DNA of 64,000 nt. Source: Branchiostoma floridae (Eukaryota; Chordata; Leptocardii; Amphioxiformes; Branchiostomatidae). Positions 27,099 to 47,451 of this stretch are shown here, piece by piece. Location of the stretch: NCBI RefSeq assembly GCF_000003815.2, contig NC_049997.1:8064676-8128675 (forward strand), written 5' to 3'. Numbering within the stretch: position 1 is the stretch's first letter; every line of letters starts with the position of its first letter. The notes beneath the pieces are model-generated. The model saw nothing but the letters and a program-made list of their open reading frames with translations, made no database searches and was not told where the DNA came from. A program made the position numbers and the translations under genes.

Positions 27099-29879
27099 AT
27101 GTTGGCCTTTTTCTTCGCTACCATCGCCCTTGCGGCGGCACAGTTTGACCAAAACTACCAGTTCGGGAATCTGAACACTCCCATTAACCAGGCTCTCATC
27201 TTCGACTGTGGAAGTACGTATAGTAAAGATTAGGAGTTTGAGAGATTGTGAACTAGACTAAGTAGATGTTACAGCCTACCATATGGATTTTACTTTATAT
27301 CCTATCCTTTGTGTTCTCTAAAATGCGCTAAGGTCTAAGCAGTTGCAAGTGATATGAGCAGTTGCGAATGATGAAGGTAAAATGACTACTACAGTACTAG
27401 TTGGTAGTTTATACTTTGTCTATAAATGTTCTGTAACTTTTTTTTCATTTATTTGGATTCCAGGCAATCCCGATCGGGCTTTGAGAAACCCCAAGTTCGT
27501 TTTCAGCAGGGACGACTTGGAGTTGCCCGGTAGCTTCACTATCATAGACGCCGAGGTAGGACAGATTCAACTACCATAAATAGTTGCCATGGTAAAAATT
27601 GTCCGTTCATTTTTCACAAAAGAAGGCGCATCAGATGTGCTACAAGATAGACAGGATTGTGATAGTGCCAATTTGTATAATACAATGGTCTAATGTGCAC
27701 GTTGTCATCACAGTACCACAGTACCCCAGAGTCTTCCGGTTTCAAACGTCGCACCTAGACTGGCACCGCCATTATCTCTTCGAAGTTTAATGAATGAATG
27801 AAGACCTTTATTGTACGTTTTTGCTTTCTAACAAGCTAAGTACAGGTCAATGTGAATAGGATACATCCCCTAGTGATTCTAAGTACAATCTGTGAAACAT
27901 GTGATACATGACTGGAACTACAAAGTCTAAAGTATTCTAGTACTACTACTAGTATGTATAGTTTCAACTCTTTCTCGCTTCTTAATACAGTCGTAAATGT
28001 AGTTGCAGGTGGAGTTTAGAATACATGGTTTGTCTAATTGCACTAGAAATGGCATTCAAAAGTAACACCAACTCTCAAAAGTACACCGGATACGATGATA
28101 CCACTACATAAGAAAACAATACATGAATTCAAACTTATTTAAAGAGATGTACCAATGTAGCATTAGTAATCCTGAGGTAACGTTACAGTAACGTTATATA
28201 CACTTAATCAGATATTTAGGCGTATGAGACGGACTCTATAACATTTCTTTTCTGTGGCGGTTTTTCGGCACCCATTTGAATTACGGGAGTTGGTATTAGG
28301 TATTAGAAAATGATTAAATGAACGAAAATGACGTGGTACAAACAAGCGCATTTCTACTACGGTGATGTAACGTTAGAAATGTTCTAATTGTTCTCATATA
28401 CTTTAAATTTCTACCGTAGATCGAGGTAGCCAAGCCCATCAATAGACCATTGTACGGCAAGATAGACGCCTGGAGAACCATCTACCTGTTCGGTGGTGCG
28501 GCTTCAACTATCCAGCTGGGCTGTTTCTATCTGTCAGGCAAGGACTATGGCGTTGGAAGTTGGTGAGTTGTTTTTTTGTTTAAAGTTTATGTTCTTTGAA
28601 TTACATCTATTAGGGCATGTTCTACTTTTTCCATACCCCAGTAGTGTGCGTAAGCCCAGTAGTTTTTTTCCTCTATTCATTTCTGTTGTGTATTTTTCCT
28701 ACAGTGACTACGGGGAACTTTGCGGGCTTTTGGACCTGAACACACCAGTCAACAACATTACTGGTGAACTGACCTGTTACGAGGAGGCGATGAACCTGGG
28801 TATCCCGGAGGACCAGTGCACGTGTGAGGGGATCGCGCCCAAGGTCTACAGCCTGAGCAACTGGTACAAGGAGGTGGACCTGACCGACTTGGAGAGTGGT
28901 GTCCTCACATTCCTGGCCCAGGTAGGTCTTCAAGGATCTGTATAATACCCCTTGTCACATTATCCACGATTTTCGGGCGTATCGATGGAAGATCGGCTAT
29001 ATTTTAGATCGACAGAGGTTTGCGCGTATTTTTCACCTGAAAACCGTCCCTGTCACATATAAGCTATACTTTGTACCTTGTACAACTGTTGTGCAATAAA
29101 GTTATTATTATTACAAGCAAGGCTCGGGCGATTACCACAGAATCGTCGTCCGATCGATTTTCGCCAAATGTGACAGGGTTATTAAGCCACGCATACGTCG
29201 CATTTCCAAACCGGGGCTCGGCGGGGCTGTTTATACAAACGATAAAAAAAGAGAAATGTATACGTAAGAATATACATAACTAATGCCCATGACTATTCTC
29301 TTCACGTCTTGTGTAGTTTAAAGTCTTGATCATCATTTTCGTTCCCGAAAGCTGCCTGACCGGGTCCCGGTTTTTTAAAAATATGACGTAGGCATTACAC
29401 TACCTCTCACCGGCAGGAACTTATCGGCCTCCTAGCGGCTATAACCACTAAGTCACATGTGAGTGTTAAAATCAACATGGGGCCCGGCAACAAATTATGA
29501 AAATATCAGAGGTACCTCCGTGGTATCTAGTAGTCCACCGGGACAAATCAAAGCCCGGTCGGGCTACACCCCCTATGGGCACCATTGGAAATGGGATCTT
29601 AGCATAAGACAAAGATCTTTTAGAAACATAAACATGACAAATTGGAATAAACTGTCGTTAGATATGGCTTTAGAGCTACACTCTGCACATCATTTGAACG
29701 TTAATGTTTACTTTTATTCGTAGGGAGACTATGAGATCAAGATGACGGCCACAGACGCTAGCGGTGCGGAGCAGGCCTGTATCGGCATCAGGGTGCCGGT
29801 GAAGGAGTATGAGGACCCCAACGCCACTGACAGCGGCTGGTTCTTCGGCAAGAGGAAGCGCTCAGCAAAGTTGCTGTAA
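27099..29879 (+). CDS. GM2A-like: GM2 ganglioside activator-like secreted protein, paralogue A (5 exons, 240 aa)
   Basis: Exons 27099-27213, 27464-27555, 28420-28562, 28705-28921 and 29724-29879; all introns are GT-AG and the joined frame is open to TAA. Residues 1-14 are a hydrophobic signal peptide ending AAA before Gln15. The eight cysteines (37, 104, 117, 123, 141, 155, 157, 208) match the GM2-activator order, including GSC-x5-C, CxC and a final A-C-I-G-I. By family knowledge they should pair 1-8, 2-3, 4-7 and 5-6. LELPG (exon 2) and the GDYEIK strand also fit. GM2 activator is a lysosomal or secreted ML-type lipid-binding beta-cup that presents glycolipids to hydrolases; the actual ligand here is unknown. 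Possible N-glycosylation sites are N134 and N222. It is about 45 residues longer than the human protein, partly from the tail GWFFGKRKR plus five residues. The ATG is supported by the signal peptide and a TATA box 62 bp upstream. First of four tandem copies. Confidence 0.9.
28943..29186. mobile_element. Short inverted-repeat element (MITE-like) in intron 4 of gene A
   Basis: The left end, AATACCCCTTGTCACATT, is matched in reverse by the right end, AATGTGACAGGGTTATT. The similarity continues inward through 'CGATTTTCG'-type sequence. A related piece occurs at 56-100 of the window (GTCGTCCGATCGATTTTCGC). It has no coding capacity. It lies about 20 bp after the exon 4 donor. Confidence 0.5.
29191..29390. 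mobile_element. Second inverted-repeat element in intron 4 of gene A
   Basis: Ends read TACGTCGCATTTCCAAACCG and, inverted, TACGTCATATTTTTAAAAAA followed by CCGGGACCCGGTC. GC-rich 'CCGGGGCTCGGCGGGGCTG' motifs recur near 29540 and 32733-32760 (intron 3 of gene B). Non-coding and MITE-like; it directly abuts the 28943-29186 element. Confidence 0.4.
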
Positions 29880-29897
29880 TTTCAGCACACAAAACTG

Positions 29898-29955
29898 TGA
29901 CGTCACTGACGTCATCACAGAAAACATCGACGCCCTCTCGCGAAAGTTGACGTCA
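29898..29955 (+). promoter_or_regulatory. Cluster of TGACGTCA palindromes in the 3' region of GM2A-like A
   Basis: Perfect 8-bp CRE palindromes TGACGTCA at 29898-29905, 29907-29914 and 29948-29955, between the stop codon and the poly(A) signal. The 8-mer is the classical CREB/ATF site. In RNA it is self-complementary, so copies could also pair. Similar clusters follow genes B, C and D. Function is not shown. Confidence 0.5.
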
Positions 29956-30011
29956 TCACAGAACGTTTAGACATCTTCAGAGTAGAACGATAGTTGATGC
30001 ACTTTTGTTGG

Positions 30012-30017
30012 AATAAA
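30012..30017 (+). terminator. Poly(A) signal of GM2A-like A
   Basis: AATAAA about 135 bp after the stop codon, the first canonical signal downstream. Inferred 3' end near 30,030-30,040. Confidence 0.65.
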
Positions 30018-31331
30018 CTGAATGGGAAGAACATGAAATTGTTGTTCTTTTTTTTTTAATAAAAAATCAATTAAAAGTACGAGCGATGAATGCGAAGGTC
30101 TTTATTTTTGTTGTAAGGTGGTTTTGACATGACATTGATCTAAGCTGGTACACTATGATACTGATAAAACCACTGGTGGGTGGCCTTGCCCCAGGGCGTA
30201 ATATGATTAACTTGAAAAAAGTATTTTGGACAAACAAGCAAGCTGAGGTTCATACTGTATGTATTACTGAGAAATCGTCTGGTCACCAAATGATATGAAA
30301 TGTAGACTAATGGGGGAGGGGGTAAGAGAACGGAAGGGGACCTAGTTCATCTATCCAATAACTATTATAATTCATAACCCTTAAAGTGCACTCTCACTGC
30401 ACTTGCGTCACTCTTGCGTCACTGCGGGGTTCGAAAGATACTCAACGAATTTTAGAGATAAAGAACGAATTTTCTTACGTACTTTTTGTGTATTTCGTCA
30501 TCTTCCAAGTCATACCTAAACTTATAACCCAATATCTAGATTATAAAAAAATCCGGAGAAAATAACAAAACAGTGACGCCGTGAACGAACCCCACGCTGA
30601 CGCAAACTTGACGCAAGTGCAGTGAGAGTGCACCCTAACCCTAACACAACAGCTGCCTTAAATCACGTACTTTGTTGAGCTATATAAAGTACAGTCACTG
30701 GGGACAAAGTGCCGCTTGTGAGTGCCTCGTGCAAATGTGTGATCGGAAATCCTATCTTTTGTGAGTGATATTTTTACGCACGGCCTACGTCACACACAAG
30801 TTAATAAATACATTATAATAGACACAGTCAGACAAATGTGATCTTCGCCGGGTGAAGGACGTTTTGTTTTTGCTACCTGAAAAAATCATGAGACAAAATT
30901 TAAAATGAATTCCGAAAATGCCATATATTTTCCATGAATCAGCGACTTAACACGATCGTACGACTTATGAACGCTGATTGGTACGAAGATACGAAATGTC
31001 TTACGTATCCAAGGGCGCAGATGGTCTACATATTTGACAATTTTGACTATTTGACTACTTCTTATTTTACAAAGTAAATATATGATAATTAGATATCATT
31101 ATACTAAATCCTAATTACATTGCATCCTTTACGTTCAATGATGTGTGTACATACCGGCGCAAACTAATTTTTTGTGTAAAAATAACTCGGAAGTTTTCAA
31201 ACTGTGGGAGAAAGATGAGCTCTTGCCAGCTGTGTATACACAAGTCCTGATAGGTAAAGGTCTTCGGTACAAATAACATGGACTAGGTCAGAAAAACACA
31301 GTCCACAGAGAGAAGACAAGTCGTTGACAAC
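30018..31331. other. Intergenic region between GM2A-like A and B
   Basis: Apart from the MITE at 30386-30633, I see no coding exon or RNA gene here. No good TATA box precedes gene B. TACAAATAA about 60 bp upstream of its ATG is the closest match. Confidence 0.5.
30386..30633. mobile_element. MITE, 'CACTTGCGTCA' family, copy between genes A and B
   Basis: Perfect 25-bp terminal inverted repeats beginning GTGCACTCTCACTGCACTTG flank a 248-bp non-coding element. Its core shares 'ACTCAACGAATTTTAGAG' and 'AACGAATTTTCTTACG' with copies at 1751-1989, 9925-10183 and 36824-37083. Telomere-like CCTAACCCTAAC follows immediately. Confidence 0.75.
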
Positions 31332-34137
31332 ATGTTGGTATTTTTCCTCGCCACCATTGCCGCAGTGTCGGCACAGACAGTGTATGATTCTACCTACCAG
31401 TTTGGATCTCTAGCCAGTCCCATCGACAATGTCGTGGTTTTCGACTGTGGCTGTAAGTTTCATTTTCTAAATGTTGTGATAAAACATCAACATATTACTG
31501 GAATATCTTTCTTATTTCTGTCAGAATTAGGTTTGAAATACCAAAGTCATATTACGTTGATATAGATGAAACTTCGTATCCCGGAAATGTCTGAAATTGA
31601 TAGATTCTTTCACCTAGCTACTTAAGTTAAATTTGAAGCAAGTATAAGTAAGACGTGTAATTTAGTCTTACATAACAGCTGTTTATTAGATATTATATGG
31701 TTACAAATGAATCGGCTTTTGATTGTATCATGTGGTAAATTTTATTCAGCAAATCGCAAGGAAACCATCATGTACTATGTTATGCTCGTACTATATCATC
31801 TCCTTAATAATTTTATGTTTACATATTTCAGCTAATCCTGACCGCGCCTTCAAAAACTGGCAGTTCGTATTTGACAGAACTGATCTGGAGTTGCCGGGCA
31901 TTTTCACCATTATCGACTTTGATGTGAGTCATCACAACTTTTCTCACTAGAAATATATATAAGATACTATTTGTAGATGTGAGTATACTAACTCGCGCGT
32001 TTTCTGTGAATAGTAGGTGAAACGATATAGATTTGATACATGTATTGTCTTCCATTACCTTCATCTAGAAGGGTATGTTTTGGTTGTGTTTGAATACACG
32101 TTGTATGCATTCGTTTTGTCAGCATAACTCAAGAAGCCGTGGATAGATTGCCATTAATTTGGTATGTAGGTAGGTAATGTATTTTGGCCCCCTGGCGGGT
32201 TCCAAGGTACCACAGTAGAGCTTCCGGTTTTGCTATCTGGTGTCCAGAAGACGCTATGGACTTGTAGATATGTAGGTATCACTTGGGTTTGGGAGGAAGT
32301 GGCATAAGCTTGGGCCTTCAAGCAGTTTCTTTTGAACTTCAAGGGCGTTTCAGTTAGAGATCTTTAAACAGGATAAGTCAAAAAGAGTTGACATTTTTTT
32401 TCTTTCAGTCACGAATGTTGTCAAATGGTACGCAGTTTGTGGTTGAAAGTTGTAGCCTTCAAGACTATCATCAGTTCAGTTCATATGAAAATTTAACATT
32501 CTGATTAAGAATTGTTATCAATATCTGGGAATAGAACCTCCTTAATCAGGTTGTTTTCTCCTCCCTTGTAGGTTGATGTAACGAAGCAGGTTGTAGGACC
32601 TCTGTTCGCGCGGATCGAAGCCTGGCGGGCCATCTGGCTGTTCGGCGGGATCGGCACCACCATCCAGGTCCCCTGCCTGCCGGTGGACCCTGTGTACGGC
32701 GTCGGGACATGGTAAGGCTAAGGTCACATTTCCAAACCGGGGCCCGGTCGGGCAGCTTTCGGGAGCGAAAAGTATGATACAAATGCAAATATGTGATGTC
32801 CTTGACTTTGAACTTTGACTTTGAACTTCCCCGGCCTTCAGATGTTTTGAAACTCAAGTTTTAACGTTAAGTTCAAGGTAACCCTGTACAATGTCACCAA
32901 TGGTTTTCGAAAAAAAAGGGATTAGATTTTCACAAATATGACAGATTATCTTTGGTTCTTAAGATTTCTTTCATTCGGCTTCTCGGACTCGTTGTCACGC
33001 TAAAGCCAGACTACTACATTGTTGAATATTTGTGTAAAACCCTCTTCTCTAGATCTCTTCTCTTTAAAAAATGAAAGACATGCCCTTTATTACCTACCGT
33101 AGATTCCACTTGATATAGTTCACTAGTATTGCAGTAACTGAAATTGTTGTAATATAATGTATATGTGTAGTATCAGTCTGTAACTTTTATTATCTATAAC
33201 TTGTTATACATTGTCAAGTGTTGCGCAATGAATCATCATAAATCATGAATAAATCTCTCGCCAGTGAGTACGGAGACCTTTGCCAGATTCTGACAGACGG
33301 GAAGCCCTTCGACGCCATGTCTAACAGCACGGTTTGTTACGAGGACGGACTTCTCCTGGGCATCAATCCTGACCAGTGTGGCTGTGAGGGCATGGCGCCC
33401 AAACACTACGGCATCAAGGGGTGGAACAAACTCATCGACTTGTCAGGGCTGGAGTCAGGCATTCTCACCTTCCTCGCCTCGGTAACTTGTGTATTCTTTG
33501 ATACCATGAGTATTGTATTCAGTTTGTTTGTTTGTTTGTCTTGGTGTGTGTTCGTGTTTATTTGATCATGACTATTGTAGAGTGGCAAGATGGAAGTGGT
33601 CTGGCTTGTATCCAATCGTGTGGTAAAAAACTCATCGTTTGATTTCCTACTGGAGCCAAGCATTCTTCTCTTCCTTGCTTCGGTCTTCTTTTTGTAGTCA
33701 GTTTGTGTATCTATTTGTTTGTTTTGGTGTGCGCCCGCAATTATTTGAATATTTCAGAGCGGCAATATGTAAGACTGAAGTTTTGTGGTAGGATACTTGA
33801 AACGTTGGAAGTTTAGTTAAGCTAGTGTCCAAAATCCAGTCCAATGCACCATGAGTTGCGACTCTCCAAGAGAGCATAACCTCTGCTTGGAGAGTAGTAA
33901 TTGGCAAAGTTTAAATCGTACACGTCTAAGAAGGTAATTTATCAAATTGCAATGCTTATTCTGTGTTTGTTGTGTTATTATTTGTTAATATAGGGAGACT
34001 ATGAGCTCAGGGCAACGGCTACAGACGCTAGCGGTGTGGAGCAGGCCTGTATCGGTATCAGAGTCCCGGTCAAGGAATATGTGGATCCAAATGCCGGCGG
34101 CGGATGGCTTTTTGGCAAGAAGAAGCGATCCAACTAA
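31332..34137 (+). CDS. GM2A-like: GM2 ganglioside activator-like secreted protein, paralogue B (5 exons, 237 aa)
   Basis: Exons 31332-31452, 31832-31923, 32572-32711, 33265-33481 and 33994-34137. Splice positions and phases (1, 0, 2, 0) are identical to gene A. The start MLVFFLATIAAVSAQ is a typical signal peptide with likely cleavage before Gln15. All eight GM2-activator cysteines are kept (FDC, VPC, GTC, DLC, TVC, QCGC, QAC). Exon 5 is closest to gene A (ATDASGxEQACIGIRVPVKEY). The tail is GGGWLFGKKKRSN. Exons 3 and 4 are the most diverged of the four paralogues, so ligand preference may differ. Same role as inferred for A: a lysosomal or secreted lipid-binding accessory protein. Intron 4 holds a short palindromic repeat at 33861-33897. 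Confidence 0.88.
33861..33897. repeat. Short palindrome of the 'CTCCAAGCAGAGGTT' repeat family
   Basis: ACTCTCCAAG and its reverse complement CTTGGAGAGT flank a short loop containing AACCTCTG. This is the same sequence as the ends of the hairpin element at 744-866 and of fragments near 4369, 6819 and 11669. Confidence 0.5.
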
Positions 34138-34140
34138 CTC

Positions 34141-34194
34141 TGACGTATACACACAAAGTAATGACGTCGGCACAGCATTCACTACGTCATTGAA
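34141..34194 (+). promoter_or_regulatory. TGACGT-type motifs in the 3' region of GM2A-like B
   Basis: TGACGTAT at 34141, TGACGTCG at 34162 followed by GCACAG, and a reverse TACGTCAT near 34183-34190. These are degenerate versions of the TGACGTCA(GCACAG) units after genes A, C and D. Confidence 0.35.
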
Positions 34195-34226
34195 GAAAAT
34201 ATATGTACGAAGGTTTTTGCGGTTGA

Positions 34227-34232
34227 AATAAA
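34227..34232 (+). terminator. Poly(A) signal of GM2A-like B
   Basis: AATAAA about 90 bp after the stop codon of gene B. Confidence 0.6.
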
Positions 34233-35990
34233 AGAGTCGTAAGGAACATGTCTGTGTTTTGCTTTACTTATTCACATACTGCTTTATTGCCAACAGTAAA
34301 CGCATAGAGAAATCAGAGACAATCAGGCAACCAAAGAAAATGGACAGAGTGGAGTGCAATAATTGATTGAGCTGCTAACGTTCCATGAAAAGAGTTATAT
34401 CGGTGCGAATACGAGTGCTAGTATCACATGGTACATGAATAGAAGTAACTTTTAAATGCATTTCATTCTAAACCGTTTTATATCTTGGGAGCTGGGATAA
34501 TGAATTTAAAACAGCTCAGAATTAGTAGGTACAAACGTGTGTGTTGGTTAGGCAATACTAATTGCTAAACTTTATTTCCAACACTGAATTAATATAGGGA
34601 CTTACCCTAAATTTTCGGTCAAACTCCATCGATCTTGTTCACAGAATGACCCTCTCTATCTCCAGCAGTGACGTCAGGAACACTCCACTTTTGCAGGAGG
34701 GGGTCATAAGTATCAGAAAGTCTATGTTGCCCCCCGTCTCTGTTGAGTGTGGGCCGGTGGGCTCTAATGTACACTGCAATACTAATATTGTTAAAATGTT
34801 GTATTTTGGTGTCATAGGTGTCGTAATCCGAACTTAAAGACACTAACGTTATATTGTGAAATGTCGACTTACTTATCTAGCAGCTGAGTACACAGTTGAC
34901 TTCGCACAGACTAAGAGCGAACTGTGCAAATGGCATACTATGCCCGGTTTAATCTGTACTTCATTTTTTCAATCGACGGCACAGGTTATAATCTATTTTC
35001 TTCATTATATAATGTTAAGTTTTTACAAGTTTAAAAGACAAAAATTCTGATTCGGGAATTCTTCCTCAGGTAGCATGAAACCTGCAATGATTCTAAACAA
35101 ATCCTTTCGTGAACATCACTTATAGTCTTTTTTATTTGTCTTCGGACGAGTAAGGATATTATAGCACTGCACTCAAGTTATTAACTTGTTTTGACAGTGC
35201 CACATACAGAGAAGATTAAGATAAATAACGCAAAGTTTACAATGCTACACCTGGTTGACGTGAGAAAAGTCGTGTTTAGTGCCTTTCCTAAGGGTCCAAG
35301 GTCGGTAGCATGACAAGATTTGAACCCAGAACCTCTGGGTTCAGAACCTCTGGGTTCAGGGGCAAAAAAACGTATACCCTGCAGTTATGCCACGCGACCC
35401 CATGTCAGCTTATAGTCCATGGTCTTATCTTCTTGTTATTGTCATTCTCAACGGTTCGAACTAGAGGACAGTGAACCACTTCCGTTCTATCTTATCCACA
35501 CTTTAAAAACATGATGATGCAATATTGCATTACCCCAAGTTAGGCCGCACTGCCTTAATTTTATGGATGACATCCGCGCGCGCATTGATTTTCTAAAAAA
35601 AAAAGAAAAACAAAACAAAACAACAACACTAGTACTGGTCACATGTACATGTTACAAAATAGCATCCATGGCCAATCATAATGCATGTTTCGCAGACGAT
35701 ATGCTCTGTGGGGAAAAGGGGCACATGGGGCCACAGCTCCCTTGTTCCATCTTTAAACAATAATGGCAACATAGTAGAAAAGGCGACGATTATTTCTTAC
35801 AGTCTTACGAAAGGTGAGCATAAGACAAACCTAGCTTGGGAAATAATGGTCTGTATGTTTAGTCTTATGGTTAAGCAGCATTTTATTGCTGGAGTTTTCT
35901 TTTTTCTCCCGCGCGCATTAGATTTGGGGTGCCCAGAGGATGTCATCCATAAAATTAAGTCGGTGTGGCCTTACATTTCAACAGAAATAG
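34233..35990. other. Intergenic region between GM2A-like B and C
   Basis: No exon recognised. At 35,270-35,395 there is a reverse tRNA-like, SINE-style stretch: 'GATTTGAACCCAGAACC' is the complement of a B-box-like GGTTCAAATC. It contains a 15-bp direct duplication, AGAACCTCTGGGTTC, at about 35,332-35,361. A long A-rich run lies at 35,596-35,625. Confidence 0.4.
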
Positions 35991-35998
35991 TATAAATA
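35991..35998 (+). promoter_or_regulatory. TATA box of GM2A-like C
   Basis: TATAAATA, 82 bp upstream of the gene C ATG. The position resembles those of the TATA motifs of A and D. Confidence 0.6.
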
Positions 35999-36072
35999 CG
36001 TATACCTCCGGGGCATTGTGACTGCAGCCGTCAGTGTTTCACCGTTAAAACATCGACAAGGTTTGGGGCACC

Positions 36073-39000
36073 ATGCTGATACTACTCCTGTCCACGCTCG
36101 CCCTTGCAGGGGCGCAGCACTTCGACGAACACTACCCGTTCGGGCAGCTGCAACAGCCAGTCGACACGGCGTTGGTTTTCGACTGTGGAAGTAAGCTATC
36201 CGTACATGATAATGATTCATATACTTGGTAATAAGTAGCCCTTCGCCTTTTTGAGACCGTAGGGGCAGTGGGTGTTTATGTTATACATTGTGTCTAGGGC
36301 ACAGTAATGGGAGTCGAGGCGGAACCAAACCCCCTCCTTCCATCGAATTTACCACCCCACCACCCAACCGAAATCATGTACCAATTGTTACTCCTAGGTG
36401 GAGTATGGAAAATCCTGTTAATTACCTTTCCAAAGGGCACAGGGTTGATAGAATGACTGGATTCGAATCCAGGATCTCTAAAGCATAGGGTTTGGTTGAA
36501 TGCTTACGCTATTAACACTGCTACAACCATACATATCTATATGTCACTACCATTGTTTCGTGATTAAAATGAAAACCTGTTTGGTGAATTTTTAGGCAAC
36601 CCGAACCGTGCGATCAAGAACCCGAAGTTTACCTTCCAGAGTACTGACCCTAACGCGGACCCTAACCAACAAAGTCTGACGCTTCCCGGCTCTTTCATCC
36701 TCCAGGACTTCGAGGTAGGTGAAGACTTGGTGTCTCATATATTTGTGGGCATCTAGCTAGGGTTACCGACCATTGTTACACCCCTGTTTCAACACTCTCG
36801 ATACGACCATGTTCCAACACCCCTAAAGGTAGTACTATAGTATCACACTGCACTTGCGTCACGTTTGCGTTGCTGCGGGGTTCGTTAACTGCTGCACTGT
36901 TGTGTTACTTTTTCTGATTTTTTAAATACTTTAGATATTGCGTAATACGTAAAGGTATGACTTAGAAGACAACAAAATACACAAAACGTAAGAAATTCGT
37001 TCTATATCTCCTAAGTTCGTTGAGTATCTTTCGAACCCCGTAGTGACGCAAGCGTGACACAAGTGCAATGAGATAGCACCTTAAGTTACGACAGGGGAAG
37101 CTTGAAGGAATGTATCAAAGCAAGGATGTTGATTAAAGTGTAACTGGCTCCTCCCAACAGAGGAGGCTGGGCAGATGCTGAGCGGGCTGCTATAAGCAAG
37201 ATTTAATCAGGCAGTTTCATGTTATATATCACAGCTACTGTTTTTTTTCTTCTACTGTTCTAGATTGAAGTGACGAAGCCGATCGCCAGGCCCTTTAACG
37301 GGAGAGTGGAGGCTTGGAGAACCATCTGGCTGTTCGGCGGAACCCCGAGTACCGTCCAGCTGGGGTGCTTCCCACTTACCACCGACAATGTCGTGGGAAT
37401 AGACGGTCTGGGAACTTGGTAAGTCTAGGAATGTGGTTTAGTTTCCGAGAAGTTCATAAAGATCCAGTGTCCCAGCGTTTTCGCTCCTACCACCCCGTAC
37501 GTAATTTCGCTGTAAAATCGTTTTACACCTGTTTTTACAACATTCCCTGGTACACTTCTAGGATCCTCTAGCTAAGATAAGCTTACGTCGAAACCTTGAA
37601 AATTAAACACCAGAAAAAGAGTAAATTTGTGAAACACACTCACACACACACACACACACACACGCGCGCGCAACAAAAACACTGAGAATGAGCTGGGTCC
37701 TTACATCTACTTGGTGATATGATACGTCAGGACAAAACCTTTCGCTGTAAGGTATGAAAAATGATCAAAAAATTGGAATTGGTACATTGGCACTTATTGA
37801 GGGATGAAAGAATATTACTTGCTATGTTCAGTATGTTAAAAATGTATCCAGTGTCACTGACGAAAACTGGTGGATTCCAGTTGAAACGTCTGATCGTTTC
37901 CAAAATCATATCCAGTTGCTTGAGTAACTGCTTTTTGGCATAAAAATGTATCATATTCCTACAGTGACTATGGCGAGCTGTGTTCAATCCTGGACCTGAA
38001 CACGCCTATCGATGACGTCACTGGTCAGCTGACGTGTTTCCCTGAGGCGATAGCTCAGGGCATCCCGGAGGACCAGTGCACTTGTGAAGGTTTGTTGGTT
38101 TGTTGCACATAACCGGTACTTTTGGGCGTTAAGCAACAACTTTGTACAATAAAGCTAGTCTGAGATTTACCCTCTACCAGGCTCCTTGGATCGCTGGTCA
38201 AATAGAAGAAATTGGACAAATAGTCAGTCTAGCCGGCCGACTCATCCAGCTGTCGAGATGGCATAAGACAGTATCAAAGCTGGCCAAGGAGAACAGTTGG
38301 CCAAAGGAATGTCAGTCGGTCAGGTGTGGCTTTGCTCAATGACACTGAATTCACGATCATTGCTCAGGTTGTCTCTGTTGCAATCTGAATAGAATCAAGT
38401 ATGTCTCATCAGGGGAGACGCCCCTAGCGCAAACTTGATGCTCCGATTGATCGAGGAAACATATATATAATATAGGTTTTAAGTGCTTCCTCCAATAGCA
38501 CAACTTTGATTCAACCTCAGGACCTATAGATTCTAAACTGCCATAATCAAAGGACTACCTTTCCACCATGACCAGGTATCATCGCCCCCAAGGTCTACTC
38601 AGCCCCGAACTACAACAGGCTCATTGACTTCAGCGACTTGGAGTCGGGGCTGCTGACGTTCCTGGCCGAGGTGAGATAATGGTTCCATGGACATATGTCA
38701 AAAGTTCCTATGCAGTGCCATAGAAAGCCATGTGATGGTTCAAACTTGAAGCAAGAGGGACTTTTGCGGTATGTACGCATGCACAAAATATAACTGCCCA
38801 CTCACAACAGTTAAAGTACATGCCTACCCCCACGATGTACGATGGTCAAGACCTGTTAGTTCCAGGGTCACAGACTATCTCTTCTAATTCTCAATAGGCC
38901 ATTACAAGCTGATAGACTCGTAACCAGCTTAGCAGAATGGAAAAGAATATCCTGGTAAAATAAGCAGGGTGCGAAGTTGACTTCCAACCACCTGTTGCCG

Positions 39001-39299
39001 ATTCATTACGTAATACTATGAGTCCTAAGCAAAAGTATCATACACCCTGAAGAAGGCCGGAGGTCCGGTCGGAAGATTGATTGATTGAAAGTCATACTTC
39101 TAAATGGTTTGGAGATAGCGAGCCTAATAATGAAATGTTGTCGTAAATTTGGTTTGCATTTTAGGGTGACTACGAGTTCAAGTTGATCGCTGAAGACGCT
39201 AACGGAAACGAGGAGGCCTGTATCGGCATCAGGGTTCCTATTAAGGAGTACGTGGATCCCGACGCCGGTGGCGGCTGGCTTTTCGGCAGGCGGCGCTAA
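36073..39299 (+). CDS. GM2A-like: GM2 ganglioside activator-like secreted protein, paralogue C (6 exons, 248 aa)
   Basis: Exons 36073-36190, 36596-36714, 37264-37418, 37965-38089, 38576-38670 and 39165-39299. Signal peptide MLILLLSTLALAGAQ. The eight GM2-activator cysteines are kept. It differs from its paralogues in two ways. First, exon 2 is 27 nt longer, inserting nine residues around a repeated DPN (TDPNADPNQQ) before the 'LxLPG' motif. Second, the region equivalent to exon 4 of A, B and D is split by an extra phase-1 intron (38090-38575), between CTCEG and IIAPK. Reading through that intron meets a stop, so it must be spliced. The tail GGGWLFGRRR ends directly at TAA. Exon 5 is nearly identical to D (AEDANGNEEACIGI). 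By homology it is a secreted or lysosomal lipid-binding protein. Confidence 0.88.
36824..37083. mobile_element. MITE, 'CACTTGCGTCA' family, copy in intron 2 of gene C
   Basis: Ends TAAAGGTAGTACTATAGTAT then CACACTGCACTTGCGTCAC, mirrored at the right by AAGTGCAATGAGATAGCACC then TTA. Just inside both ends is GCGGGGTTCG or its complement. The core matches the other three copies (GTATGACTTAGAAGAC, GTTGAGTATCTTTCGAACC). Non-coding, about 260 bp. Confidence 0.65.
37637..37672. repeat. (CA)n(CG)n microsatellite in intron 3 of gene C
   Basis: CACACACACACACACA followed by CGCGCGCG. Confidence 0.95.
37845..37930. repeat. Dispersed repeat 'CAGTGTCACTGACGAAA...GAGTAACTGC'
   Basis: Sequence TCCAGTGTCACTGACGAAAA ... 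GAAACGTCTGATCGTTTCCA ... TTGCTTGAGTAACTGCTTTT. Related copies at 25810-25905 and (right half) 44228-44285. All three lie near the GM2A-like array. Possibly one SINE-like family. Confidence 0.5.
38155..38330. repeat. Dispersed-repeat fragment inside the gene-C-specific intron
   Basis: 'GGCATAAGACAGTATCAAAG' followed by CTGGCCAAGGAG matches the end of the inverted-repeat element at 49915-50083 (GGCATAAGATAGTACCAAAC, then TGGCCAAGGAGTG). The complement TTTGATACTATCTTATGC also occurs near 3726. This suggests that transposon-derived DNA makes up part of this intron. Confidence 0.45.
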
Positions 39300-39308
39300 A
39301 TCAGGCAC

Positions 39309-39408
39309 TGACGTCAATACTTTGTACAATGACGTCTACACAGGATCCACTGACGTATTAAGTACTGTCGCATCGACAATGACGTCAGCACAGGATTCAG
39401 TGACGTTA
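39309..39408 (+). promoter_or_regulatory. TGACGTCA motifs in the 3' region of GM2A-like C
   Basis: Perfect TGACGTCA at 39309-39316 and 39380-39387, and near matches TGACGTCT (39330) and TGACGTTA (39401). All lie between the stop codon and AATAAA. Several are followed by (G/T)ACACAG or GCACAG. Confidence 0.45.
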
Positions 39409-39428
39409 AACAACGCTGATCAGTTACC

Positions 39429-39434
39429 AATAAA
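39429..39434 (+). terminator. Poly(A) signal of GM2A-like C
   Basis: AATAAA 130 bp after the stop codon of gene C. Confidence 0.6.
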
Positions 39435-40870
39435 ACGAGGATTGTGAATCACGTGTCTATAGTATTTCATTTATGAAATTTAGGACTTGAGCTCTTGGAT
39501 ATAAAAAAGATAATTCATAGTTTTCACGTCTTGCCAAGGTTTGATATTGAAGTAAATAACAGCCTTTTGGAATAAATGTCAAATAAGGTAGTTGACCTTT
39601 ATCCGCGGGGTAACCTATATTCGTTGTTTTTAAAATCCGTATTTTGGGATATCAAGTCGACGGACAGTGGTTTCAAATCGCAATTTATATTAAAAAATAT
39701 TACTGATATCGCTGTATACCCCTCTATACAACGGATATAGGTTGCCTCTCGGGTAAATGTGAACTATCGTTAGCGACACACAGTTGCAAGATAAATCTTT
39801 TGTCATAAACCATTTCATACTGTGGACTTATGCAAATATCAAGCATTTTAGAGGGCTTGAAATGACCATAGAAGAGATGTGAATGATATGACGCCATTGA
39901 AAAAAAGGTATTCGACGGATAACTTACCTAATTGTAGTGGCTCTTTATAATCATTTGCAGATTGGGTGCAGACAAAATTAAAGAGATGTACATGTGTACC
40001 CTTGATATGTTCAATGACTATAGTGTATGAGAACAGTCACATAACAAGGTAAAAGTCACAAATATTGCTGTGACCTTACTGACAAAACTGATGACCTTAC
40101 TCTCATAACAATGTATGAGAAAATCCATAAAATTAAATTGAAATGGAAATTCATGTCAGTCATTTTACATACTTCTATGTGTCCCTGAGATAACCGGATG
40201 TAAAGTTCATATTCGTTTGTTTAAGATACTGCTAGCAAATTTTATCTTAGATTGAACACATACACACCGGTACCTGTGTGCATATTTGAACAATAGTATA
40301 CAAAAATGACTATGTGCATAAAAAATTAGCTGGTAGAAATATCGACAGTTTTTAAGTAATATGTTAGTACGTTTTCTGAGGCACCACGACACCCTCTCTA
40401 AGATTTCAACCATAGACCATATGAAGACAATGTCGATGCTCCCCAAAAATATTTGAGTTGATTATAATCGATTTTAGTAGTTCTCGTATGGGTCCGATAA
40501 CAAATCGACAGCATTCGTTAGACAGTTGTAGGTAAATATCAAATAAAATTCATCTGTATTGTTACAGAAAAGGCTGCGTTAGATCTTTGTCTGCGGTTGG
40601 TTTTATCACAGGCTGCTTGTAAATGCTACGTCGACATCAAAATTGTATGGCTGCCGGTTAATGTGTCCGCACTGTACAAAATTGCAAAGGTACCGTTAGG
40701 ATAAACTAACGGACATGTGCACATGCACTAAGTTAAGTACCTTCGGAACCTTCCGTTCCTACAAATTTATCTGTTTGCTTTAATATACAATTTTAACTTA
40801 GTTCACATCCTTTGGTAAATATTGCAAAGCCCAGGCAGAAGAGTGTCCTTGCCTGATCAAACACAAGTGG
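39435..40870. other. Intergenic region between GM2A-like C and D
   Basis: AT-rich sequence with no exon, RNA gene or clear repeat that I can support. Confidence 0.45.
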
Positions 40871-40878
40871 TATATATA
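40871..40878 (+). promoter_or_regulatory. TATA box of GM2A-like D
   Basis: TATATATA, 63 bp upstream of the ATG of gene D. This is the same spacing as in gene A (62 bp). Confidence 0.55.
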
Positions 40879-40933
40879 CCCGACGTTATGCGTGAGCAGC
40901 AGTGTTTTGCAGCCAGGACACCGTCAGGACACC

Positions 40934-43900
40934 ATGCTGATACTACTCCTCTCCACGCTAGCCCTGGTAGGGGCGCAGCACTACGACGAGCACTACCAGT
41001 TCGGGCATCTCGCCCGCCCCATTGACGACATTGTGGTCTTCGACTGTGGAAGTAAGTAATAAGAATTCTACTTTGAAACACACTAAAAAGATTTGGTTGG
41101 TAAACTTATAACTAACGTTACTACATGAACGTCGTGTGAATTGGGGTCGACATTCCTTTTCGACTTTCATTCTTTGACTTGTAGTTATTCTTCTGACAGT
41201 CATAAAATCAAGAAAGAGCACAAAGGATTCTTAAACAACTAAATTCATTCTGCGGTAACAACTCTTCGGGCTTTTGGTCACTTCTTAAAGAGTACAAATC
41301 TAATGACAAAACTGACGATCACGAAACGATTGTAGCTGAAAACCTACACTCGGGGGTTTTCGTCTTCCTCAGTCTGCTTCCAAAAGGAAGTCAGGCCCAA
41401 CCTGTTTAGCTATTAGAAATAGCCAACACTAGTATTCAATTACTCTATTTTTACAATAATGTTTATCACTATCCATTATCACATGTATGCTCCCTATGTT
41501 TCTACCATGTACTTGCAATTATCCTCTGGGATATGAACTTGCAAATAAAACTTCTTTGCAAAATTCAGTTGTCTTGTGATGGAGATGTTACCGTGCGTCG
41601 GTAATTTGTTGTGTCCTAACAGTCCCTCGCACGACGTACTCGCATCTGTGGCCCAAGAAAGAAAGTATAAGATATCCTTGCCAATACTCCTGAACCAGGG
41701 GTGCCTACCTACCTACCTAGTCCCTTGACCTCCAGGTCGTTGGGGGGACAAGGTAGCCAAGAAGATAGAGAGTTGCCTCCAGGTTCGTCTCTCCCTAGCC
41801 AGGGTTAACCTCTCCTGTAGGCTGAGGCCCGTCCAGTCAGCAATGTTATCCTGCCAAGCTTTCCGTTGTCGTCCACGCCGACGCCCTCCCTCCACCGTGC
41901 CCTGGAGGATCGTCTTGGCCAGGTTGTTGTGTCGGGTAACATGCCCGAACCACTGCAGTCTGCGTCTTTTAACTGTTGCTAGGAGTGGTTCTTGAGGGCC
42001 AACGAGGCGCCATTCGACGAGTGCTAAGCCTACACTGACTAAACTCATCAGTGACGGCCTATAGAACTGAACTGCAATTCGTACTGGACTGTAAAATTGA
42101 TGTTGACATGTTCGAACAGAGATCTACTTGTAATTGTGATAGTCCGAAACTAACATATCTATATTGATTGTAATCTAGATGTTATTTGTACATATTGTAA
42201 TTCCGTAAACAGTTTCATGTCGTATTGACAACGTTGCGCTAGTTTCACTGTATTCTAAAGCGGCGCAATTCAGTTTTTTTTACTGCAAAGCCGATTTGAC
42301 ACATGGTGTTTTTTTATCAATGCTTTGAGGCAAATTAAAGTTTTATTTCTCAATCTCCAGGCAACCCCAACCGTGCGATAAAGAACCCAAAGTTCACCTT
42401 CAGCAGGAATGACCTGGAACTGCCAGGTACCATTACCATCTATGACATGGAGGTGAGTAGGCAGCTCAATTTGCCTTTGATATTTTTTTAAAATTAGGTT
42501 CGTAGGACTTGATGTTACCATCATGAAGATGAAGAGCGGCCCATAGCGATAACTGTAGCAGCATCTCTTCTCCCTAAGTCAGAAACATCAAGCTTGGGCA
42601 AGCTTGACTTCACTGACTCAAAAGGCGAAGCAGGGGTTACGTGGGTGCTCGGGAAATTCCCTACCCCATTTGGCCGAAATGGTTTGATCCGCTTACATCG
42701 CACCATCGCACATGTGGCAGGTTCTTTTACGTGCCCGGGGTATGGCCCTCCCCAGATACGGGACCTCCAATTAACGTCCTATCCGAGGGAGGGCATTTGC
42801 ATCATTCACCTAGAGCAGGGACTCGCCCGCGGTCTATGAAATATGCCTTGGGAGGTTTTACTAAACAGGGCTGAGGTTTCCACTTTTGTAGGCGTGTCCT
42901 CTAACCAGATGTCACCCAATCAGAGAACCGCCTAATTGTTCTCTCTAGGTAAATCCGGTTCTCCGATTGGATGACAGCTGGTTAGAGGCCCGACATACAT
43001 CCATACAAAGTAGAAACCTCAGTCTGACATAGCTTTAACTCGGAGATTTTGTTGACAACATACATCATGCGATATACAGTCATGCGATATGTTTTTGACT
43101 AGATTGAAGTGACAAAGCCCATCACCAGGCCCTTCAACGGGAGGGTGGAGGCTTGGAGAACCATCTGGCTTCTCGGTGGGGCCGGCAGCACCATCCAGAT
43201 CGGCTGCTTCGGCCTCACAAGCTCCGGTACGATAGGACTGGACGGTGTGGGAACATGGTGGGAGTTATCCTCTTTTTTATATGCATCAATCATAAAGCAA
43301 ATCAGAAACATGGGTTCGAAGATGTCCTAACTCAGTGAGATGTTCAGAGTTTCACGTATGCCTTGTGAGCGCGACTAGCAAAGACAAAAAAACTTCGACA
43401 GACCGAGCGAAACCACAACTCGCCATAAATTTGAAGCTTCCGATCCTTAGTATATGACCTGGACTGCCATTTTTGATCAAAAACTATAACTAGCTAAACC
43501 ACCTCTGACCTGTACTTTCTGTACTACAACTAGTTTGCATTTTCGGTCATCTTCCCATTCACTGGATCATGTCACTTAGTCCAGGGGCATAGCTGAAAAA
43601 TTGTGAAAATTTGCCTAAAGCACCAAATTTGGCACACATGCAGTTGAATGTATTCTAAACAAAAATAGATATGGAGGCATCTCAAGTTCTACCCAGAATT
43701 GATTTTATAGCACTTTTTTGGGCATTTTTAGACCAAAAATGTATATTTTGGGCTTCTGTGCCCAGGTTTTTTTTAATCCAAATGACCTGAAATTTTGAAT
43801 GGAGGTGCCTATAGCATATAACTCAAACACTTACCAAGCCCAACTTAGGCAACTATCTCACACATGTCAAATGTAGGTGGTGGGTATCTAATTGCTGAAT

Positions 43901-44828
43901 GATCTCTATTTTCTTTTATTTCAGCGACTACGGGGAACTTTGCAACATTTTGGACCAGAACACGCCAATCAACGACACCACGGGTGAACTGACCTGTTTC
44001 GAGGAGGCGATGAACCAGGGAATCCCGAAGGACCAGTGCACGTGTGAGGGCATCATCGCGCCCAAGACCTACTCCATCACCAACTGGAACAAGGAAGTAG
44101 ACCTGTTGGACCTCGAAGCGGGGTTGATCACTTTCCTTGCGGAGGTGGGCTTAAAGATTACTTTCTTTCCACATTTAGCATGATACCAGTAAGTTACGCC
44201 TAAAGAAGTTACTCATTGACAAGCATCTAGATATGATTTGTCCAGTTCTAAATCATATCCAGTTGTTTGAGTAACTGCTTTGTGGTGCATCTTATTACCT
44301 GGATGTCTAACCTTCATCGACGTACCAGTGAGGTAGTTCTGCATTCTAAAAGGTCTTTCACATACAGTCCTCAATTTGTTTTCGGTGTGAGTGTATCTGT
44401 TTGTTTGCTTGTATACCGGTAATTATTTAGATGCAGTAGAGAACCTAGTTTTAACATGTAATCTTCGCCAGGGACACCTGCACGAAGTTAGGTCAAAAGT
44501 CCCAGAATAGGTCATCTCATTTCCTGTCTGTAGTTTCCTGCTATATTCGTGTCAGTTGCTTCAAACGGGAGTCGTTTGAACAAGTGCATTGGACAAAATC
44601 AGTGAGGACTTCAGAAAAGGAATTAAAAAAGAGAATAAGCAAGAAAAATATTTTACGGAGATATAAGAGACCTTTTTTTCTCTGTCGCAGGGTGACTACG
44701 AATTGAAGCTGATCGCTGAAGACGCTAACGGAAACGAGGAGGCCTGTATCGGCATCACGTTGGCAGTGAAGGAGTGGGTGGATCCTAACGACACTGGGGG
44801 CGGCTGGCTCTTCGGCAAGAGGCGCTAA
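40934..44828 (+). CDS. GM2A-like: GM2 ganglioside activator-like secreted protein, paralogue D (5 exons, 240 aa)
   Basis: Exons 40934-41051, 42361-42452, 43103-43257, 43925-44144 and 44691-44828. Signal peptide MLILLLSTLALVGAQ, almost the same as gene C. All eight GM2-activator cysteines and the CTCEGIIAPKTY loop are present. Exons 1, 3 and 5 are closest to gene C, but the first half of exon 4 (DYGELC through the GELTC and EEAMN stretch) is closest to gene A, so the gene looks mosaic. The tail GGGWLFGKRR ends directly at TAA. Intron 1 holds a reversed LINE fragment (41713-42048). Intron 2 holds a repeat block and an inverted-repeat element. Last of the tandem array, convergent with the SLC37-like gene. 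Confidence 0.88.
41713..42048 (-). pseudogene. Non-LTR retrotransposon ORF2 C-terminal fragment in intron 1 of gene D
   Basis: The minus-strand frame reads VKRRRLQWFGHVTRHNNLAK, then TILQGTVEGGRRRGRQRKAW and DNIADWTGLSLQE. This is the typical C-terminal tail of LINE reverse transcriptases, downstream of the RT domain. No RT catalytic block precedes it, so it is a 5'-truncated dead copy. It lies antisense to the host gene. Confidence 0.8.
42540..42840. repeat. Dispersed repeat block in intron 2 of gene D
   Basis: Contains 'GTTCTTTTACGTGCCCGGGG' and 'GACCTCCAATTAACGTCCTA', a sequence style I associate with a widely dispersed invertebrate repeat. Only one copy is visible here, so the assignment rests on memory of such repeats. 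No long conserved ORF is evident. Confidence 0.3.
42871..43022. mobile_element. 152-bp inverted-repeat element in intron 2 of gene D
   Basis: The left end CTGAGGTTTCCACTTTTGTA pairs with the right end TACAAAGTAGAAACCTCAG. Inner arms CCTCTAACCAG...CCAATCAGAGAACC and GGTTCTCCGATTGG...CTGGTTAGAGG continue the palindrome almost to the centre. A foldback MITE. Confidence 0.7.
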
Positions 44829-44837
44829 ACCAGGCAC

Positions 44838-44902
44838 TGACGTCAGCACAGTTTTCAATGACGTCAATTGGCGTGACGTCAGCACAGTTTTCAATGACGT
44901 AC
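44838..44902 (+). promoter_or_regulatory. TGACGTCA array in the 3' region of GM2A-like D
   Basis: Perfect TGACGTCA at 44838-44845, 44859-44866 and 44874-44881, plus TGACGTAC at 44895. A duplicated unit TGACGTCAGCACAGTTTTCA (36-bp period) carries them. They lie between the stop codon and the poly(A) signal. Confidence 0.5.
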
Positions 44903-44929
44903 TTAATGAGATGGTGCTGATTAATCGTC

Positions 44930-44935
44930 AATAAA
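44930..44935 (+). terminator. Poly(A) signal of GM2A-like D
   Basis: AATAAA about 100 bp after the stop codon of gene D. Confidence 0.6.
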
Positions 44936-47451
44936 GTACTACCTATGATTCATGTGTAGAGTATTTCATGAATCATTTCTAATTCACGCTGATGTCTTGG
45001 CAGGATGAAAGGATAATATGTTTTTAATAGTTTTATAAATGTTGACAGGAGACATTCAAAATGGTATTATGTTCTTGAACAAATGGTTATGAAACATTGA
45101 CATGGATTTAGTGATGTATTTCAGGTAATCACTAGCAAACGCTTGCTCTCAATGGATTTCACAATTGTAGCTACAACCAAGGGTTTTAAACTAGTCAGAT
45201 AGTCCATTTGTTCCTGGTTGTATTAAACAACAAGCCATTTTTCACGGGTCAGCTTAGAGGTAACAGGGTCCAGTCTGCTATAAGAACAGGCCTGCTTCTG
45301 TCATTCTAATTCACCTTTTGAGCAATAAAATTCAAACAAACTCCCCAGCGTACGCTAAACTGGGTGGGCAGGTAACACTTACATTATAGCATTGTAGATA
45401 AACATGTAGCTGAAATCTCATGATGGTATGGCTACAAGACCAAGTCTGAACACTTTAAAGCAATACTACCAATTAAGCTGTCACAAGTCAGTTCAGAAGT
45501 TACAACAGTAAGTGACTCCAGATTAACAAACTTTAATTTGTTTCTTAATTCCTCAAACCAATGACATACATGTATATGTACAGCTCATTAACACAAAGAA
45601 AAGTGTTCTTGTTTGTAACTTCATAACTCTACTTAATATGAAATTATTTGTCTATGATTCTCCATAACTGAGAGATCTGAATCAGATTACATGGTACGAC
45701 TGTCACCAATATTTAACATTTCTAAAGGCTGTCTGGAACCTAGTACATACACAAGAATGCTATTGTTATAATTTTTTTCAAGACATTTTAGGTTGAAGAC
45801 AGCCATTTGATTGTTCCACAGGCTTTTTTTTATAAAGAATACTAGTAATAGGTACATCTGTTTACGTCTTTGTAAGAATTGCCCATTACTAAAAAATACT
45901 ACATGTACGTGACAATTGAGTTCAGTTTCGACAATACTTTAATTTCTTATTACTGTAAATGCAGAAACTTTTGTGGTGGTTTAATGTTTGCGGTTTTCAC
46001 GGTGCGGCTTCACCGCAAACTTAAAACCACCACGAACATTTTTTTTTCATGCCAGTAGAGTCTAAGATGCTTCAACATCTTAAAACCACTGCGAAAAGTC
46101 CCTTTTCCTGCTACCGCGAAATTAAATCCCCTCAAAGTTAAATGCATTTACAGTATTCAACTATAAAGCATCACGGTTGAAGTTTCTGCTAAGCATAATC
46201 TACATGTAGTCATTGAGGCTGTTGAAAATTTTGTGGTCACAATATCTCCCTCCCTCAAGGCACTAGTTTCTTTTCCCTTTTTTCTGCCCTTACTTTTACA
46301 CAAGATGAACCATTCTCCAAATTCATACTAAAATTGCAAGTTGAACTTAGGTATTTAAAGGAAGTTTGACTTCCAGACTGGATGACTTTAAACAATAGAA
46401 TTGCAGATTCAAACAAAACAAATGGCATCCATGATGATCTAATGTTTAACCAGGATGATTACGATAAATCTCCTCCATGGTAAGGTTGCCTTTTGGAACT
46501 GAATTTTATCAGAATTTCAACAACCAATGGATTTAAAAGCAGTATCGAGGAAAAGATAGCAAAAGTTACCAAGGGCTAACGCCTATTTGCTCCTAATTGT
46601 AGAGACCACGTCTCTACAATTCAGGTAAATTCAGTGGTTACAGGATTAAGCAACAGAAACAAATTATATATGAGCCTTGGCCTCACCCCTGAGGTGTTGC
46701 CAAAAAATCTGAAGTTTTGTCAGGGTAGGAATCCCAATCTGTCTGGAGTTGCCAATTCCAATGTTGCAATGGGAGTCTCCATCCACAGACTTTGATCAGG
46801 ATGCTACAAATGCGTTAGGGTGCATATGGCCTCCTTTTCATAAATCCTGACTTTCAAGTTAATCTTATTCCAAGCCTCATTTCAATAGTTGAAACTCAGG
46901 GGATACACTGAAGAAACACACCCCATAGAAGAGAATATCTCCTGTGTGTATCCTCCCTTTTTTCCCTAGTCAGAGGGTTTCCAATGTTTGTTATGGAGGA
47001 CATATATCCAAAACGTATCCTTGTTGCCAGTCTGTGATCCCTATGTTATGGCAACCAATCTCTTCTAGGAGAGCATACTGCATTTAGCAGACAGCAGGCT
47101 GGCAGGTTCTAAATTAGGTTCTAATGTGTTTCTGTGGGTGGAGTATATAGTTGGTTATGGATATTAGCTATATTTCCATTGGGTTTCACATGTGCATCCT
47201 TCAGTGCACAATTGAAATCAAAATAGAACAATGTGTCTTTAAGGAATATCTATGAATTTTGGGATCTACACATTCAGTTGAGTACAAATAGAAAATTAGC
47301 AATTTTGCCAGATTTCAATCTCTACCTTCAAAGTTGACACATATCAAAATATCCAAATCCTCTTCATGATAAAGATTAAGTCTTATTTTTGTATATAAAT
47401 CTAAGTTGCATCTGAATCTTCTTGATTTGGAAGTACGACCAACTCCAGTTG
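44936..47451. other. Convergent intergenic region between GM2A-like D and the SLC37-like gene
   Basis: Presumably includes the 3' UTR of the SLC37-like gene (minus strand). I could not place its poly(A) site. Apart from the MITE at 45951-46155, no exon or RNA gene was recognised. Confidence 0.4.
45951..46155. mobile_element. MITE with TACTGTAAATGCA ends, copy 1
   Basis: Terminal inverted repeats TACTGTAAATGC / GCATTTACAGTA. Inside are the characteristic 'GTGGTTTAATGTTTGCGG', 'CTTCACCGCAAACTTAAAAC' and 'CTACCGCGAAATTAAATCCC' blocks. A closely similar copy lies at 50984-51195 and a 3' fragment at 55951-56003. Non-coding. Confidence 0.8.

Follow-up and report, generated by a model that had tools for sequence, protein, structure and literature searches.

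A glycine followed by basic residues at the C terminus of a protein is the textbook signal for amidation, and such a finish is usual on peptide hormones. The GM2 activator (GM2A), a lipid-binding protein, has eight cysteines that form four disulfides. Antibody heavy chains end in Gly-Lys. Recombinant antibody from Chinese hamster ovary (CHO) cells carries amidated (prolinamide) ends at levels of up to 15% (PMC4146454), and in CHO cells large proteins with a C-terminal Gly become amidated (PMC4482046). In CCK/gastrin/sulfakinin peptides, a Tyr stands some six residues ahead of the terminal amide residue, and basic cleavage sites flank the peptide (in part after PMC4772807). Here we describe a tandem array of four genes, A–D, arranged head to tail on the + strand at 27099-44828 of a 64,000-nucleotide (nt) stretch of the Branchiostoma floridae genome (hereafter, the window), whose products end in a conserved Gly-basic tail. 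We propose, with a probability of roughly 0.58, that A–D are GM2-activator-like (ML-type) lipid-binding and probably secreted proteins that are trimmed and converted by the amidating enzyme PAM into intact proteins ending in ...GW(L/F)F-amide.

All four gene models are complete, and in each the last exon (+ strand) encodes the tail. Gene A ends in GWFFG-KRKR-SAKLL-stop (GWFFGKRKRSAKLL*, 29835-29879, here and below with the stop included), gene B in GWLFG-KKKR-SN-stop (GWLFGKKKRSN*, 34102-34137), gene C in GWLFG-RRR-stop (GWLFGRRR*, 39273-39299) and gene D in GWLFG-KRR-stop (GWLFGKRR*, 44802-44828). A sequence-only reading of the window had claimed that all four proteins end in GW(L/F)FG followed by KRKR, KKKR, RRR or KRR and then by a stop after 0-5 residues, and the DNA bears this out for every gene; it placed the start of the A tail correctly and those of the B, C and D tails off by 1, 4 and 1 bases. 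The linker that it described ahead of the tail, VDPxAGGG, is not common to the four, as A reads EDPNATDSG and D reads VDPNDTGGG. The extension past the last Lys of the core is 17-24 residues long. That Lys is invariant, standing at the end of VPVK (A, B), VPIK (C) or LAVK (D), and is followed by EY or EW. The tail is the sole dibasic site, and the sole Gly-basic-basic site (G[KR][KR]), in each of the four proteins.

The models behind these tails were built from exon-wise homology among the four genes together with splice sites and an open reading frame. They are complete, predict proteins of 237-248 amino acids and have GT-AG introns throughout, with phases 1, 0, 2, 0 in A, B and D. Gene A (27099-29879, 240 amino acids) has exons at 27099-27213, 27464-27555, 28420-28562, 28705-28921 and 29724-29879; gene B (31332-34137, 237 amino acids) at 31332-31452, 31832-31923, 32572-32711, 33265-33481 and 33994-34137; and gene D (40934-44828, 240 amino acids) at 40934-41051, 42361-42452, 43103-43257, 43925-44144 and 44691-44828. 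Gene C (36073-39299, 248 amino acids) has one additional intron, inside exon 4, giving exons at 36073-36190, 36596-36714, 37264-37418, 37965-38089, 38576-38670 and 39165-39299.

In all four proteins the Gly is retained and the three positions after it are basic, while overall pairwise identity is 54-74%. All 12 cells of these three columns hold a basic residue, and none of the three columns is invariant. Pooled over overlapping pairs of genes, the ratio of nonsynonymous to synonymous differences per site (pN/pS, NG86) is 0.08 for GWxFG, a motif of five codons only; the linker gives 0.24, and the core and the signal region give 0.43 each. The pS values lie between 0.48 and 0.66. Under a composition null, Gly-basic-basic falls within the last 12 residues with a probability of 0.005, and Gly with three basics with a probability of 0.0003. 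The four genes are paralogues and not independent draws, so these two figures count for one event rather than four, and the later selection weighs more. Given this conservation, and given that the proteins hold no other Gly-basic-basic site, we reject the idea that the tail is a neutral leftover or a product of chance.

The N termini resemble signal peptides. As read from the translations, all four proteins begin with 14 hydrophobic residues, of which the -1 residue is Ala and the -3 residue Ala or Val (A at 27099-27140, reading MLAFFFATIALAAA before Gln15; B at 31332-31373; C at 36073-36114; D at 40934-40975; all +), and Ala14-Gln15 is invariant within the region of codons 12-15 (40967-40978 in D). 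The -1/-3 rule would place a signal-peptide cut before Gln15. If the cut falls between Ala14 and Gln15, the new N-terminal Gln could become pyroglutamate, and the mature proteins might then be blocked at both ends.

The genome also encodes at least part of the enzyme that such a tail would call for. With a PHM fragment as the query, we found two genome matches. One is a PHM exon of PAM at C2:31848680-31848826, for which 13 distinct solved sequences of PAM gave matches, the best at E 1.5e-9; the other, at C2:31072580-31072672, is weaker (E 7.9e-4). Frames near the former hold more stretches that look PHM-like by eye, such as DAPPTHIPEG, HPFAFRTHAHGLG and SSDEMCNFYMMYY. Judged by this first locus, the PHM half of PAM is encoded in this genome. 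The Pfam domain Cu2_monooxygen was discarded as proof of PAM: its 72 genome matches are too broad a set, because dopamine-beta-hydroxylase relatives share the domain. Among six Cu2_monooxygen loci, each read on one strand, a copper motif was readable in two (L033 and L037), and it did not look to be of the PHM type.

Kinship of A–D to GM2A is weak by sequence search alone. In Pfam, none of the four proteins matched an ML family at E 1. In phmmer searches against PDB, the best match of D was GM2A at E 0.028 (a chain of 162 residues, with the match ending at residue 160) and that of A was GM2A at E 1.2; B and C had no match at E 10. A profile of A–D searched against PDB chains listed two unrelated chains, with GM2A absent. 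A genome search with a GM2A fragment (E 10) gave seven matches, comprising four exons of two genes on C5 and three weak matches on C12 and C15 (E 2.9-8.8); A–D were not among them. The two C5 genes are classical GM2A genes in tandem (C5:19816500-19827000; L039 and L040), 51% identical over the pieces compared. Assembled with the first exon missing, one of them matches solved GM2A (E 2.3e-45). In a single profile-profile comparison, A–D matched these two genes with a probability of 92.5% and an E of 4.9e-7. Each A–D protein has eight Cys, and all eight align with those of C5 GM2A in the same order in the profile comparison, seven of eight in a plain alignment. We take A–D to be divergent GM2A-type (ML-type) proteins on this basis. 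The two C5 genes end in ...LACYRAELSLTK and ...LACRELTMSVVSS, with no Gly-basic tail. The earlier statement that classical GM2 activator lacks such a tail thus holds for the matched PDB chain of GM2A and for both classical genes of the same genome.

Maturation to an amidated protein would proceed by two routes to one end. In A and B, a furin/prohormone convertase (PC)-type enzyme would cut after KR, before Ser, and a carboxypeptidase would then trim back; in C and D, where nothing follows the basics, direct trimming would expose the Gly. PAM would convert the exposed Gly, leaving an intact protein that ends in ...GW(L/F)F-amide in all four cases. The residues beyond the basics differ (SAKLL in A and SN in B after KR, an immediate stop in C and D) and yet give one predicted end. 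Of the points that favour processing, as against a passive basic tail, we consider this the strongest, although it comes from four related genes. The conserved Gly and basics, the lack of a second dibasic site, the hydrophobic start and the encoded PHM together support the original suggestion of an amidation-type signal on a protein of lipid-binding type. Lipid binding, secretion, cleavage and amidation of A–D, and any signalling role of an amidated end, are predictions from these features. A bolder scenario, in which a lancelet hormone-like ligand arose from a lipid carrier, is one that we consider unlikely: the intact GM2A-type protein, possibly with pyroglutamate at Gln15 and GWLF-amide at its other end, would deliver lipid and dock to a peptide receptor through the amidated end.

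The main rival to amidation is that the tail stays unprocessed. The aromatic GWLF or GWFF with its three or four basics would then be a membrane-docking or lipid-gating element for acidic membranes, or would fold into the protein's own lipid cavity. Aromatic and cationic character is kept in all four proteins, and A–D are related to a lipid-binding family. Furthermore, a motif similar to GWLFG, I(W/Y)L(F/L)GG, occurs inside the proteins in exon 3 (IYLFGG in A, 28420-28562; IWLFGG in B and C, 32572-32711 and 37264-37418; IWLLGG in D, 43103-43257); the likeness could be chance, or the tail could mimic that inner strand. What an unprocessed tail leaves unexplained is why a Gly stands directly before the basics in four of four proteins, and why A and B have a Ser after KR where C and D stop at once, although four related genes are few for an argument of this kind. 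We regard a membrane tail as the less probable account, at perhaps one chance in a few.

Two further accounts accept processing and differ in its product. A–D could be precursors in which a mono-basic cut after the invariant Lys ahead of the tail frees an amidated peptide of 13 or 14 residues, for example EYVDPNAGGGWLF-amide. The cut-site Lys is invariant and close to where the GM2A-like core ends, and the peptide, with acidic residues and GWxF-amide, would be loosely CCK-like (compare starfish QYGFGLFF-NH2, PMC4772807). However, all four proteins lack a dibasic site upstream of the tail, the putative peptide would occur only once per protein, where a folded domain of about 200 residues ends, and the CCK likeness is short and may be chance. 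In A–C, the Tyr lies 11 or 12 residues upstream of the terminal Phe, and D has Trp in its place; we found no sequence kinship to CCK beyond that short likeness; CCK kinship is rejected. The sequence-only reading had offered an amidated protein or a released short peptide; the first part stands and the second is weakened, because the tail has a lone Lys and no dibasic site ahead of it, which makes release less likely than an intact amidated protein. We consider the precursor account improbable. Trimming without amidation, which would leave a product ending in Gly or remove the whole tail, with the conserved residues serving cleavage only, fits the same sequence features, and carboxypeptidase trimming is widespread in the secretory pathway. 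It gives no reason for the conserved W and F, and the genome encodes the PHM half of PAM; this is the account in which we place the least belief.

Several points weigh against amidation of an intact protein. The sample is four paralogues of one tandem array in one species, and the evidence is of sequence only. The conservation test covers five codons, and the Gly codon is GGC in all four genes, so that there is no synonymous control at that position. When the three basic codons are added to GWxFG, pN/pS rises to 0.35, since Lys and Arg replace each other freely. The alignment has 195 ungapped five-column windows, and in 26 of them (the tail included) four or five columns are invariant; the tail, with four of five, is good but unexceptional. 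The evidence for the machinery covers the PHM half of PAM only. The site of action of classical GM2A is the lysosome, in which one would not expect amidation, and amidated folded proteins of the size of A–D are uncommon.

The tail appears confined to this array. The last exons of A–D, searched against the 513 Mb genome, gave four matches at E 0.001, and exons 4 and 5 of D gave nine at E 10, all of them in A–D; in these searches only the best candidates were scored, and single-sequence queries can miss distant copies. A degenerate DNA pattern for GW[LF]FG followed by two M-R-N codons, which also allow His, Gln, Asn and Ser, matched the genome 12 times (four of these being A–D), compared with 13 times in the reversed control. 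We read 30 codons at each of the eight matches outside the array: four (L014, L015, L017 and L018) have true Gly-basic-basic, none of those four with a stop in the next ten codons, and one other (L020) has a stop a few codons past GKQ in an otherwise unremarkable frame. We reject a wider family of such tails in this genome, as pattern matches are no more frequent than in the control and none outside the array combines true Gly-basic-basic with a tail-like stop. In the open-licence literature, for part of the queries among the best-ranked papers only, we found nothing on such a tail as an amide or as a sequence, on ML or GM2A proteins together with amidation, or on GM2A or ML proteins in amphioxus.

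In the 3′ flanks of the four genes, the first AATAAA on the + strand after each stop lies at 30012-30017 in A, and begins at 34227 in B, 39429 in C and 44930 in D, 90-133 nt beyond the stop. The same flanks are crowded with cAMP response element-like TGACGT(CA): 14 of the 33 TGACGT on the + strand of the window fall in 497 nt past the A–D stops (29880-30020, 34138-34240, 39300-39440 and 44829-44940). Their spacing is often 21 nt (21 in B; 21, 21, 29 and 21 in C; 21, 15 and 21 in D; 9 and 41 in A), with a unit close to TGACGTCAGCACAG. Downstream of the array, a tandem repeat of 55- to 56-nt units (47537-47838) reaches into the start of a 642-codon open frame (47816-49744) with a reverse transcriptase domain (RVT_1, E 8.5e-26), probably a retrotransposon. 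Flanking this region are two repeat pairs (45951-46155 and 50984-51195), about 5 kb apart and 87% and 89% identical, with end words such as TTTACAGTA; they are perhaps a non-autonomous mobile element. Rfam gave no match within the window.

Should the signal be used, the finish of a peptide hormone would sit on a folded lipid-binding protein longer than 200 residues, in four gene copies, while the ordinary GM2A of the same animal has no such tail. The array would then offer a simple test case for natural protein-sized substrates of PAM and for how lipid carriers gain receptor-like contacts. Set beside GM2A, A–D share its eight cysteines in order and the segment G(S/T)CxY(x)(D/E)(I/L)C. They are only 24-27% identical to one C5 GM2A, with additional residues between Cys 2 and Cys 3 and on either side of CxC, and, unlike GM2A, which has no tail after its last strand, they run on for 17-24 residues, which makes them relatives of GM2A and not GM2A itself. 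With amidated peptide-hormone precursors of the CCK/sulfakinin type they have the processing signal in common, and the W and F ahead of the Gly are reminiscent of CCK-type ends; unlike those precursors, they carry a single signal, placed where a large folded domain ends, with no dibasic site upstream. A third comparison is with the CHO-made antibodies and Fc fusions (PMC4146454 and PMC4482046), which are likewise large folded secreted proteins that serve as PAM substrates through a C-terminal Gly. Unlike in those recombinant products, the signal in A–D is native and has been kept among paralogues.

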